64,000 nucleotides of DNA from Cheilinus undulatus (lineage: Eukaryota > Chordata > Actinopteri > Labriformes > Labridae). This document shows positions 38,170 to 44,100 of this stretch, piece after piece. The DNA lies in the NCBI RefSeq assembly GCF_018320785.1, contig NC_054885.1, forward strand, positions 8,072,921 through 8,136,920. The letters are read 5' to 3'. The notes under the pieces were generated by a model. It did no database searches. It was not told the origin of the DNA and saw only the letters and a list, made by a program, of their open reading frames with translations. The number at the start of each line of letters is the position of its first letter. Position 1 is the first letter of the stretch. Position numbers and translations under genes: made by a program.

Positions 38170-41100
38170 ATGCTGCCAAACACTGGTGACCAAAGTGAGA
38201 AAAGGCAGGAAGACGAAGAAGGAATGGAAGGAGATGAAGAAGAGGAGGACGGGGAAGATGAGGAGGAACGATCTGTTCTTCCTCTACTTCCTCCCATGAA
38301 CGTGACATCTTCAAGGGATGACCCCACCGACCGATTGGATGCAGCCGCCAGCTTCCCATCCAATCAGGACTTGAGCTCTGACTCAGGCGAGGAGGTAACG
38401 GCCTCGCTTACTGGCCCGAAGAGGGTGTCGTTACCATGGCAGCGAAAGGAGGAGGAGGAGCACGACGAGGCGGAGACCAAGGCGGTGGCGTCGTCTCCTG
38501 ATGGGCGATTCCTCAAGTTCAACATCGAGATCGGACGGGGATCATTCAAGACGGTTTACAGAGGACTGGACACAGAGACCACGGTGGAGGTGGCCTGGTG
38601 TGAGCTGCAGGTGACATAAACACAGACGCAAATACAAACTGACACAAGTACACAGTTTATGCTATACATTTTTGGTAACTTTTGATTTTACTAATGCAAA
38701 AGTTTCCCTGCAATCTTGGTTAAAGATGCACGGTATTGGACTTTCACTGACAACACAAATTCATTTTAGTCAATATGAATATATGTAGTTTAGACCCAAA
38801 ACTTCAATCCTTAAAACACGCTTACAAATTTTAAGACTCAAGATGAGCCGAGGATGGGGGTCAGAGGAACCAAAACCTTGGGGCGGGGCTAACTCCCCAC
38901 ATGACATCATGAGGGGAAAAAAGGGGGGAAAGGGAATGGATTTTTCTAATTCTTAGAGGGATTGTGGACAGGCCAGGGGCACATATTTTTGTTACAAAAG
39001 CCTGAAAAGGTGTGTTTTGCATAATTTGTGACCTTTAAAGGTACTTTTAGTGAAGAGAAATAAATATAAGAAAGAAGTGGCTTATTAAGATCAATAATAC
39101 CCGGAAATAAACTCCCTACAGCGCCATCATGAGGTCAAACATATTGATTATTGCTTCTAATAGTAACAGCAGAGCTGCATTATGTCAGAACAGTGTTTTT
39201 CATTAAAGTTAGCCCAGTCGTCATGGTAACGCCCACCATGTTCATGGAGACAGAGCTGGTTAAAAGTCAGACCAGATGACCTAACCGGAGCCTGACACAG
39301 TTAACAGAAAGAACTGATTCTTGAACCCAGAACCTTTCAAAATAAAAGCAACAACAAGCCTCACATTAGATGAAATGAGGAGTAAAAAGGAGGACGCAGG
39401 GCGTCTATGAAAGTGCATATGAGAGTGGGTTATCTGAGGTCACAGGGTGTTTCTGATTTTATTGTTATATTGGATGCTTGCCGACAGCTCTGATTGGCTC
39501 AGAGTGAGGAAGTGTTTGCTGAAACATTTATGACATGATAGAGTAAATATTTAACACACATGAGCACATAACACTGTGAGGACATTTCATTCATTCTTTG
39601 GTGATCTGTAGGTGTGTGTCACCTTTATTACAGGCCCTCTTATTTCTCTGAAAGCATGGATCTGTGTTAAATCTTCAGCTGAGGGTCTCCACTCATTAGT
39701 GAATGAGGTCTTTGGACTTCTTAAGGACTCAGTTAACTGTGTTGCAAATATGCATAGTGACCGCTCTCTGCAGGTTGAAACACTTCTGCTGCAATTGTAG
39801 TAAATCCAAAAAAGCTGGGGTGCTGAGTAATATAAAATATAAAGATTAATTGTGTTTAATCTCAGAAATTCTGTTGTTGATTGCAATTAATTGCACCCTT
39901 TTAATCGTGTTTTAAAATTCCCTTATTCTGCTATGGTGGCTTAACCAAAATGAATTGAAAGGAACAATAAAGCTGAGATTAACCACGACTAAGAAAAATT
40001 AGTACATTAATTGTAGATGTGATTAATTTATTAATCACAATTAACTTGATCAATCTTGGCAGCCCCTTATTTATTTATTTATTTATTTATGAGTCTAAAT
40101 GCTCTGCTATTCAGCCTCTCCAGATGTTACAGTTTCATTTTTATTAATACACACATATTTTGGCTCAAACTGAGAGGAGTGTGTGCACGCCTGTACATGT
40201 GACAAAATGTTATTAGTGACTCAGCAGTTTGGCGTTCTGTGTATCTGATTTGACACTCGGCGGCTGGTTGATGTTGATAACAGCACACACACACACATAC
40301 TGTACAAACACTGAAACGCAGCTAATGAGGTTAAGGGTTATTCTCTGGGATGGACTCACTAGTTTGTGTTTTTGTTTTGGGTCAGGGAACCTTTTAAGGA
40401 TCACAAGATTCCACCAGTATTGTCCAGTATAACATTTCTACCATAAATTCCCATTAAAGCAAACTCAAACAGGGCCTGCTTAGTTGTGTTTACGGATTCA
40501 GTAACCTAATGTCTGAGGTAATTTTCACCTGTTAGTTTCAAGGCTGCCCATAAGGGGGAAAGCTTTCTGGGGTCCAGCCAGTTGTGGGGCATGGAGGTCA
40601 GGAACATCACGGTCCATTGTGAGGATAATCTGCATTAAAGCAACATAAAACTAGTTTTATTTAATTACGCTGTAGAGCAATATAGCATTTTAAAAATGTA
40701 AACCCATTCACTCGTAATAGAATTGCCTTTTTATTGTAATGTTGCAGCTTGGATGGGCACAGTGACGAAACCAGATGGAGAGTAATGTCAGACTTCATAG
40801 CTGAGCCATGATGTGCACAAACATCAGGATACAAGAGAACAAAAAATAAGGAACTGAGAAAAACTTTAAGAGAAAATCAACTGAATGACAAAAATTGGTT
40901 TAACGTGGCAAAAAATTGGCTAAAAGTGGCAAAAATAGGAGGTTAGAATGGTAAAGAACAGTTAAAAAGTGGCAGAGTTTGATAGAAGTGGAAAAAAAAT
41001 CCACTAAGGGTGTCAAAATAATTGGCTAAAGTGGCAAAAACAGGAGGTAAAATTGTGAAAAGCTGGTAAAAGTGGCAAAAAGGGTTGAGAGTGGCCAAAA

Positions 41101-44100
41101 TAGGCTGATATAAGTAGTGAAAAGGGGTTAAAGAGTGGTAAAATTTGGTTAAAAGGAACAGAAAGATTTTAAAGGAGGCAAAAAGGGATAAACAGAAAAT
41201 AAGAGTTAAGAAAGAATAAAATGTGTTAAAAGTGGCAAAATTGGTTTAACGAAGCAAAAAAATGGCTAAAAGGCAGTAATAACAGTGAATAGCAGTTAAA
41301 AAGTTGCAAAAAATCTGTTGAAGGTGGCAAAAAAGGAAGGAAAAAATGGTGAAAAGCAGTTAAAAGCTGCAAAAAAAGGTTATAAGTGGGAAAATAGGTT
41401 GAAAGTAGCAGAAATAAGGGGTGAAAAGTGGTAAAAGAGTTGCAAAAAATGGTTAAAAGAGGCACAAAAAAGGAATAAAAAGTAAATATGGGATGAAAAA
41501 GGAAAATGTGTGTTAAAAGTTGCAAAAACTGGTTTGGAGTGGCAAAAATTGGCTGGGGGGGGGGGGTGACCTCTCCAAAATAAAGTAACCGTTAGACAGG
41601 ATGCTCGCACCAATGCTACTGATCCAGCATACATGCACTGATATTAATAAATAAGGGCCCATTCTCTGGGTTTTAAGGGCCCAGCCAATTCTGTTGGTAG
41701 GTCTGTTACTTGTGGTTAGTGACCAGCAGCTGACTGGTCACAACATTAACACACACACACACACACACCCCTTGCAATCACAGAGTCATGACATAAGTAT
41801 GTTTATCTGATTACCGCCATGTTTGTTGGTAATTTGAGACTCCAGCCGGTTGCCTTGTCAGGAGATTCTGGTCGTCTGAGGGCTCAGAGTTGCTGCAAGT
41901 GTTTCTGGGACATGCTCCTTTCATATCAGTACAGTCTCTCATTGATCGTTGTTGATCTTCAACTCTCTAGACTCATCGTCTGAACAAGGCAGAGCGTCAG
42001 AGGTTCACAGAGGAGGTGGAGATGCTCAAGGCTTTGCAGCATCCAAACATTGTCCGGTTCTTTGACTCCTGGAAGGCGACACTTAAGGGTCATAAATGCA
42101 CGATCCTGGTCACGGAGCTCATGACGTCCGGGACCCTCAAGACGTGAGTTCACAATAAATAAATGCAAACAAATCTTCCCAACTTGATCAAGGTCAGTTT
42201 GACTCCTTTATTGATCACCTTCCTGATAACATGTTCCTCAGGGATCCATCCTAGTTCCTGTTCTTTTCTCCCAAATGTAAGAGAGCAATTTTTACCTTTT
42301 ACACAGAAGAGACAAAACGCTTCAGGGAAAGTTGAAGACAGGCATTCATGTACTAGAGCTCACCTGTCTGACCAGGCCTGTGTTCCTGCAGGTACCTGCG
42401 CAGGTTCCGCCAAATGAAGCTGAAGCTGCTGCAGCGGTGGAGCTTTCAGATCCTGAAGGGGCTGCATTTCCTGCACACACGAAGCCCCCCCATCCTACAC
42501 CGAGACCTGAAGTGTGACAACGTCTTCATCACTGGTCCCTCTGCTTCTGTAAAGATTGGAGACTTGGGCCTTGCCACACTCAAGAATGCCTCATTCGCAA
42601 AGAGTGTCATCGGTAAGAACAGAGTGTGGGCAGGGTTGAAATTGTTCGTGAAGTCCAGAAATCTGTGTCGCTCTTGTTGCTGACTTCATATTGGGTCTGG
42701 TGGTGTATTTAGGGACCCCAGAGTTTATGGCTCCAGAGATGTATGAGGAGAAGTATGACGAGGCTGTAGACGTTTACGCCTTCGGCATGTGCATCCTGGA
42801 GATGGCGACATCTGAATATCCGTACTCTGAATGTCAGAACGCCGCCCAGATCTACCGCAAAGTGACCAGTGTAAGGCTCCACTCACCTGAGTGCTGACCA
42901 CTTCCTGTCTTTATCCTTGTGTTTGACTGTGTTTCTCTCTCAGGGAATCAAACCTGACAGTTTCTCCAAAGTCAAAGTCCCCGAGTTGACGGAAATCATC
43001 GAAGGCTGCATTCGCACCAAGAGCAGTGAGAGGTAACTTGATAAATCACAGCGGAGTGTTTATACTTGATGCCTCTTTTTTTTACATTGCATATGGTGTA
43101 AATAATTTCTGGGAATGCACAGCGATGCACTGCCACCTTACAGTAAGAAAGTTTCTGGTTTGACAAATGGTCAGACAGTCTGCATTTGCAGGATTCCTCT
43201 GGGTATTCCACCTTCCTCCCGTGGAGCAAGAAATACTTGGCTCCAGAGACTCGGAAAGATAACGGAGAAATTTGTGCCAGAAAACAGTAAATTTAATCCC
43301 CAACTTCTGCCCCCCAGGCATCTGTATTTTGATCTGAAGCATTGTTTGAAATTTGAGTGAGTGTGGCTTCAGATCATTCAACCGACACACCTACAACTTC
43401 TTAGAGCAGATTTTACTGCCTAATTTTCATGATTTTAAAGCTTAATTTGGTAAATTTAAAGATGTTTATCATGACTGAAATTTGACCTGGTGGTTCATAA
43501 CACAGCAGCCTGTCATACAACAGCTCTAAAACGCAGATGTTTTTTTTTTTTTTTATCACTTTACAGGGACTTTAATTGTGCCATCCTTTACCTTCTCAGT
43601 TTAAAGCTACAGGACCCCACTGGAAAAGCATGAATTTGTTTGTCTGAGCTGCATTTTTAATCACTGTTTCATCACGCAGATTCACAATCCAGGACCTGCT
43701 GGATCATCGGTTCTTCCAAGAGGAACTAGGGGTCCACGTGGATCTGGCCGAAGAAGATGATGGAAAAAAAGAGGCGCTAAAGCTCTGGCTGAGGATGGAC
43801 CCCAACAAGAAGCTGCATGGCAAATACAAAGACAACAACGCCATTGAGTTCTTGTTCGAGCTCTATAAAGACGTCCCCGAGGAGGTGGCCCAGGACATGG
43901 TAACTAAAATGCTACTGTCATGACACCAACATGCTAACATCATCTTGAGGGCCAACTCACCTGTCCCCCCTCTCTTCTCTCCTTGTCTCCCAGGTGGTGC
44001 TTGGGTTTCTTTGTGAGGCTGACTACAAGCTGGTCGCAAAGGTGATCAGGCACAGGGTGACGGCCATAAAACGTCAGCGGGAAAAAATACGCCTGCAACA

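Follow-up and report, generated by a model that had tools for sequence, protein, structure and literature searches.

A degenerate 20-bp minisatellite of Cheilinus undulatus that probably travels inside a non-autonomous hAT-type element

A 64,000-nucleotide stretch of the Cheilinus undulatus genome (contig NC_054885.1; the whole stretch is referred to here as the window) contains several degenerate minisatellite arrays built on one unit of about 20 bp, raising the question of why such repeats should have flanking DNA in common. A first-pass annotation had counted five arrays, and a cyclic alignment scan of the window for the degenerate 20-bp unit recovered exactly the same five (A to E, scores 188–282), with no sixth array above the scan threshold and a single match (score 18) across three block-shuffled control windows. 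Common flanks were visible in a window-versus-window BLAST comparison, and matching to arm consensuses bore out the flank sharing proposed earlier: D and E have both arms, while A (its inner left arm) and B match parts of the left arm. Judging from sequence comparison, it is very probable that D and E belong to one family of non-autonomous elements resembling a hAT miniature inverted-repeat transposable element (MITE), that the minisatellite travels in these elements as a passenger, and that A, B and C are remnants. Arrays riding in a mobile element would therefore account for the common flanks of degenerate minisatellite copies within 64 kb.

The flanks of D and E were used to sample further copies from the genome (1.17 Gb, 46 contigs, about two dozen of them large), whose size, contig make-up and repeat content suggest a fish. 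The queries E-left, D-left and D-right gave 597, 3638 and 1611 first-look candidates, with 40 scored per query, and 40, 48 and 40 matches, respectively; 30 loci of about 3 kb each were retained per query, leaving 87 mutually non-overlapping loci after removal of D and E themselves. An array was called in a locus when at least two GTGGCAAAA-like motifs were present. By this measure 83 of the 87 loci had an inner-side array, and an outer-side array on the same strand was seen in none (0/87). In three loci (L011, L014 and L065) an opposite-strand array was found close outside the element, and these are neighbouring inverted copies. Both arms were present in 57/87 loci. All-against-all alignment showed that similarity breaks off at one common position in most loci, and the 241 bp immediately left of D (40300–40540) are single-copy DNA, with themselves as the sole genome match. 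Seven loci recovered with the E-left flank have additional common DNA left of the element end, because these copies are nested in a second element (see below).

The ends of the family are sharp (CAAGGC...GGCCTG), and unique arms of about 400 bp on the left and about 200 bp on the right enclose the array. The left consensus starts with CAAGGCCGCCCATAAGGGG and the right consensus finishes with TGTGGGCAGGCCTG, giving short imperfect inverted ends. As read by eye from the consensus, the terminal inverted repeats (TIRs), short and imperfect, are CAAGGCCGCCCATAA on the left and, as the reverse complement, CAGGCCTGCCCACAG on the right, and the motif GGGCCCA has two occurrences inside each end. Two-ended copies (n = 24) measure 0.66–1.85 kb. 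For D, the bounds found (40539–41705) are close to the span of 40540–41720 first suggested for a mobile element. A scan of the interiors of D and E found no stop-to-stop frame of at least 130 amino acids.

Target-site duplications were then sought at the copies with two ends. Of 32 end pairs found, 24 were kept after dropping those with poorly reached ends, and 23 were usable, as L070 lacks a left flank. Partial or perfect 8-bp duplications, matching at 6/8 or better with a one-base register shift allowed, occurred in 9/23 copies against 7/552 mispairings of flanks, a control that contains the empty L070 flank; with no shift allowed, the counts were 8 copies and 5/552. Three copies have perfect duplications (L017, L044, L074), four match at 7/8 (L024, L045, L054, L069) and two at 6/8 (L050, L056), and D, at 6/8 with the register shifted by one base, and E, at 7/8, agree with an 8-bp duplication. 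At the exact CA...TG ends a length of 8 gave z = 6.1; among the lengths tested, up to 11, lengths of 6, 7, 9 and 10 were also high (z 5.2–6.3), these being the identical register with bases added or removed. The check for target-site duplications that the first-pass annotation had recommended thus came out in favour of transposition. The hAT superfamily is defined by an 8-bp target-site duplication and short TIRs of 10–25 bp (PMC3942097). Both features were found in the D/E family, as were the conserved ends, internal array and many dispersed copies of a MITE with an array. The family is thus probably a non-autonomous hAT-type MITE with a minisatellite core. Helitrons, DINEs and HINEs are not known to make a target duplication; a Helitron-type element was considered and rejected, given the 8-bp duplications present.

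Such an element would move by cut-and-paste, with a hAT transposase presumably supplied in trans that would recognise the imperfect, short inverted ends, perhaps together with the internal GGGCCCA motifs. The 20-bp minisatellite would be a passenger between the two arms, already contained in the founding element and copied along with it, and it would later have been altered by duplication and deletion. Other hAT-type MITEs would have taken up some of the copies, and one or more of these composites would have multiplied using the ends of the host.

Whether the array is more than a passenger was considered from its structure. Autocorrelation of the array peaks at about 10, 20, 30–31, 41 and 51–52 bp, and the spacing of AAA in arrays peaks at 10.3 bp. 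In 28 arrays, identity to the unit was 75% with 0.10 indels/bp, compared to 62% and 0.13 for shuffled letters, and A positions were the best preserved (0.84 vs 0.67). A simple A-tract bend model, expressed in predicted degrees per 126 bp, gave 67–98 for the five window arrays and 36–42 for dinucleotide shuffles; the predicted bend had z > 2 in 29 of 31 copies, D and E among them. A curved, phased array kept by selection, with transposition needing a bent or nucleosome-poor core, would be compatible with our interpretation, and it would suit both the A-tract period and the location of all 32 of the top-1% predicted-bend windows of the 64 kb inside arrays. It would also suit a mean predicted bend of 76, against 60–64 under base-specific neutral decay with matched identity and indels. 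We nonetheless regard such selection as improbable. A changes slowly both in A-tracts (0.093) and outside them (0.087; C, G and T 0.13–0.17, all measured in composites, in which the element sits inside another MITE), and the arms show the same slower change at A as the arrays. Phasing is built into a 20-bp unit that has two A-tracts and decays, and neutral decay at lower indel rates reaches a bend of 73–79. An initial neutral simulation (76 vs 52) had been suggestive of selection for curvature; that gap narrows to 76 vs 60–64 once the slower change at A is allowed for at the matched indel rate and closes at lower indel rates, and the idea is not put forward here. Under these models most of the predicted curvature needs no selection, neutral decay being sufficient. 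There is little to recommend the stronger proposal, to which we give an equally small chance, that the array is a working part whose bent, possibly nucleosome-poor core would help to join the ends, favour spread and have been adopted in at least two hAT MITE families.

Some copies do lie inside other transposons. Eight loci (L007, L011, L014, L019, L021, L029, L031 and L090) have a second element immediately beyond the CAAGG end; this host MITE is interrupted exactly at the first base of the inner element in 7 of them and no more than 2 bp away from it in the other. Where complete, this outer element starts with CAGNGGTT(C/T)TCAACC and ends like GGTTGAGAACCACTG, and it has perfect 8-bp duplications of its own in L014 (CTTTAGAG), L021 (ATTTAAGG), L029 (CTTTAGAG) and L031 (GTCTAACC), representing three different target sequences with a central TA in 4/4. 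The right arm of the inner element was not found in these four composites, and L007 and L090 retain both inner arms. In L086 a different host flanks both inner ends (GTTATAGT/GTTACAGT, 7/8) and has its own duplication at 6/8; the right side of L077 is common with this host. L014, L021, L029, L031 and L086 are thus hAT-like MITEs with CAGTGGTTCTCAACC-type ends and a D/E-type array inside. We take the CAGTGGTTCTCAACC-type TIR to be that of a Charlie-like hAT; such MITEs are like D/E in their 8-bp duplication and differ in their ends. Within the window, a long pattern for Charlie-like ends gave 0 matches and a short pattern 1 (1.7 expected by chance). Insertions of D-type elements are thus seen in two other hAT-like MITEs. 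One of the resulting composites went on to multiply with its host's ends, so the array has gained a second vehicle. The composites are likely younger than the copies outside such hosts (type-1 copies), with a mutual identity of 0.87–0.90 in left-end DNA compared to about 0.78–0.80 for type-1 arms and with four perfect host duplications; against this, divergence from a mixed left-end consensus is 0.114, equal in type-1 copies.

The adjoining of a Charlie-like left end and the CAAGG end in eight loci could also mean that D and E are pieces of a larger Charlie-like hAT with CAGTGGTTCTCAACC ends, their own ends being internal break points. This is very unlikely, as the DNA outside CAAGGC...GGCCTG is unrelated in most loci, copies bear their own 8-bp duplications and two different host MITEs are interrupted; L017 and L074 have a perfect duplication of their own and no host MITE match.

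Arrays differ in length and content between copies. The arm-to-arm distance in type-1 copies is 240–1131 bp (coefficient of variation 0.38 over 32 copies, among them D and E), although some of this span is DNA other than array (e.g., L044) or comes after a left arm that has been shortened. In five composites it is 504–600 bp (coefficient of variation 0.06), with two lengths using extrapolated right ends and L019 excluded for lack of a right end. The description of the minisatellite as hypervariable in the first-pass annotation therefore fits only in part, with wide variation among type-1 copies and little among the five composites. Over 159 sampled type-1 pairs, mean identity was 78% for left arms, 81% for right arms and, by local alignment, 74% for arrays. 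In 131/159 cases the array pair scored above every one of 5 unit shuffles (26.5 expected), although the shuffle disrupts unit junctions and biases the test toward collinearity, which counts among the points against our interpretation collected below. Since arrays are partly collinear between copies, they appear to be inherited and gradually changing. Likeness of 60-mers was 24.5 within arrays vs 22.1 between arrays (n = 168, p = 4e-5), and there has therefore been local duplication too. Array identity in composites averages 0.82, below the left-end DNA, so the array is more divergent there. The earlier suggestion that arrays expand or shrink after spreading agrees with this mixture of partly collinear inheritance and local duplication, of which the doubling of a 298-bp unit in A is an example.

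The greater likeness of 60-mers within arrays, together with the lack of arms at C, could be read as the mark of independent satellites, or of a self-spreading satellite, with flank likeness due to chance or conversion. We find this hardly credible against the placement of the array on the inner side of nearly all loci and never on the same strand outside, the common ends and 8-bp duplications, and the two-sided common flanks of D and E with their duplications. Origin of the loci by segmental duplication rather than transposition can be dismissed with near certainty, since similarity stops at the element ends in most loci and 8-bp duplications differ between composites, even though several composites have common DNA past the inner element.

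Several observations weigh against reading D and E as a transposing family with an internal array. The 87 loci are the best matches to D and E, a biased and not a random sample, and the consensus strings drawn from these matches are likewise biased. Four of the 87 lack an inner array (L015, L022, L068, L076); in L068 and L076 the right arm is present and the array adjoining it absent, and these are possibly array-less copies or recombinants (longest open reading frames listed, 77–84 and 152 amino acids). A single arm only was found within 1.5 kb in 30/87 loci. Before duplications were counted, 8/32 end pairs had been removed for poorly reached ends, and 14/23 of the remaining copies match at 5/8 or less. 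The eight nested loci mostly descend from one nesting event. Array C gave no match to the arm consensuses at E 1e-3.

A literature search, with Repbase, Dfam and most subscription journals outside it, found no hAT MITE of fish whose core is a 20-bp minisatellite. The spread of minisatellites by transposable elements in rice is reported by Inukai (2004, cited in PMC6947457). A minisatellite within a MITE is also known in Porphyromonas gingivalis (PMC4596501), and both cases resemble D/E in joining a minisatellite to a transposon that contains or spreads it, although the hosts differ. The spreading of arrays by MITEs and Helitron-type elements that carry them has been reviewed (PMC9659126, PMC12628747). 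The Tc1/mariner MITE miDNA4 of Xenopus tropicalis has an internal array whose copy number varies (Scalvenzi and Pollet, 2014, via PMC9659126, PMC12628747); it resembles D/E as a non-autonomous DNA transposon with an internal array and differs in superfamily and repeat. In the model of these authors (via the same reviews) ends decay and bare arrays remain, and such end decay would fit A, B and C. The Xenopus Xmix/Xstir MITEs carry tandem repeats as D/E do (Hikosaka and Kawahara, 2004, via PMC9659126, PMC12628747), although there the repeat reportedly arose from TIR or internal sequence of the MITE itself. In Atlantic cod, gadMor-hAT-1784 is, like D/E, a fish hAT-derived MITE with tandem repeats, but its 167–169 bp units lie inside TIRs of about 600 bp (PMC12368964), in contrast to 20-bp units between unique arms with short TIRs. 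Drosophila DINEs (Helitron) and the HINE/pearl elements of bivalves (HINEs of Helentron type) have central arrays in a non-autonomous element as D/E do, but are not hAT (PMC9659126). The earlier impression that no named family has this layout is thus not upheld, as named precedents exist in other transposon superfamilies. The D/E family is a new family of a known kind, the array-carrying MITEs, and is distinct in unit, layout and nesting. Among the MITEs that disperse arrays it supplies a hAT-type case, one in which a second transposon also transports the array by nesting. Annotation should treat such arrays as the interiors of transposons, and many copies pairing an array with unique arms would permit array turnover to be measured against a clock.

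Coordinates of the features in the window are listed in Table 1. A and B are probably decayed or truncated copies of the D/E element, and C may be another. In arm-consensus matching, the outer left end and right arm of A and the right arm of B were not found. The core and left-arm piece of B are on the same (-) strand about 1.1 kb apart and presumably belong together. Imperfect tandem repeats (77-bp and 19-bp periods) at 12676–12925 separate the two and are perhaps part of a later insertion.

Table 1. Positions in the window of the D and E elements and of the parts assigned to A, B and C.
Feature	Position	Strand	Basis
D element, two-ended, 1167 bp, CAAGGC...GGTCTG	40539..41705	+	family alignment, end consensus
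D left target duplication GTTAGTTT; 6/8 with GTTACTTG, one-base register shift	40531..40538		by eye
D right target duplication GTTACTTG; first base is the element's last base	41705..41712		by eye
D left arm	40539..40886	+	40550–40886 vs left-arm consensus, E 1e-67; first 11 bp by eye
D minisatellite core, A-tract period ~10.3 bp	40886..41552	+	unit scan, spacing analysis
D right arm	41573..41705	+	right-arm consensus, E 3e-32
E element; left-terminal 20 bp diverged, no inner left arm, short right-end deletion	54156..55161	+	arm matches; outer ends by eye
E left arm match	54176..54328	+	arm consensus
E right arm match	55035..55156	+	arm consensus
E left target duplication GAGTTAGT; 7/8 with GGGTTAGT	54148..54155		by eye
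E right target duplication GGGTTAGT	55162..55169		by eye
E minisatellite core	54324..55019	+	unit scan
A inner left arm (consensus positions 173–406)	14555..14781	+	arm consensus
A minisatellite core; 298-bp unit doubled in 14965–15572 at 93%	14805..16242	+	unit scan
B left-arm piece (consensus positions 35–158)	13505..13626	-	arm consensus
B minisatellite core	11140..12382	-	unit scan
C minisatellite core, no arm found	18068..19288	+	unit scan

A separate degenerate tandem repeat of about 41 bp, with TTTTTGCC-like text, lies at 26675–27330 and is not picked up by the 20-bp unit scan. Stretches resembling remains of Tc1-type transposases are present at 9457–10002 and 16700–16960 (+), the former with no Pfam match at E 0.01. 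The stretch at 38065–38616 (+) matches WNK kinases by PDB sequence (E 4e-22), with no Pfam family at E 0.01, and 42507–42990 (+) is presumably a second WNK-type kinase stretch, judged by matches to WNK motifs at about 42.5–43.0 kb. Lying between these two stretches, D is probably intronic, and E may lie within a later intron of the same WNK-type kinase gene. A PSMD3-like coding stretch is found at 28940–29443 (-; Pfam TPR_PSMD3_N, E 3e-51), and together with the WNK matches it indicates an animal genome.

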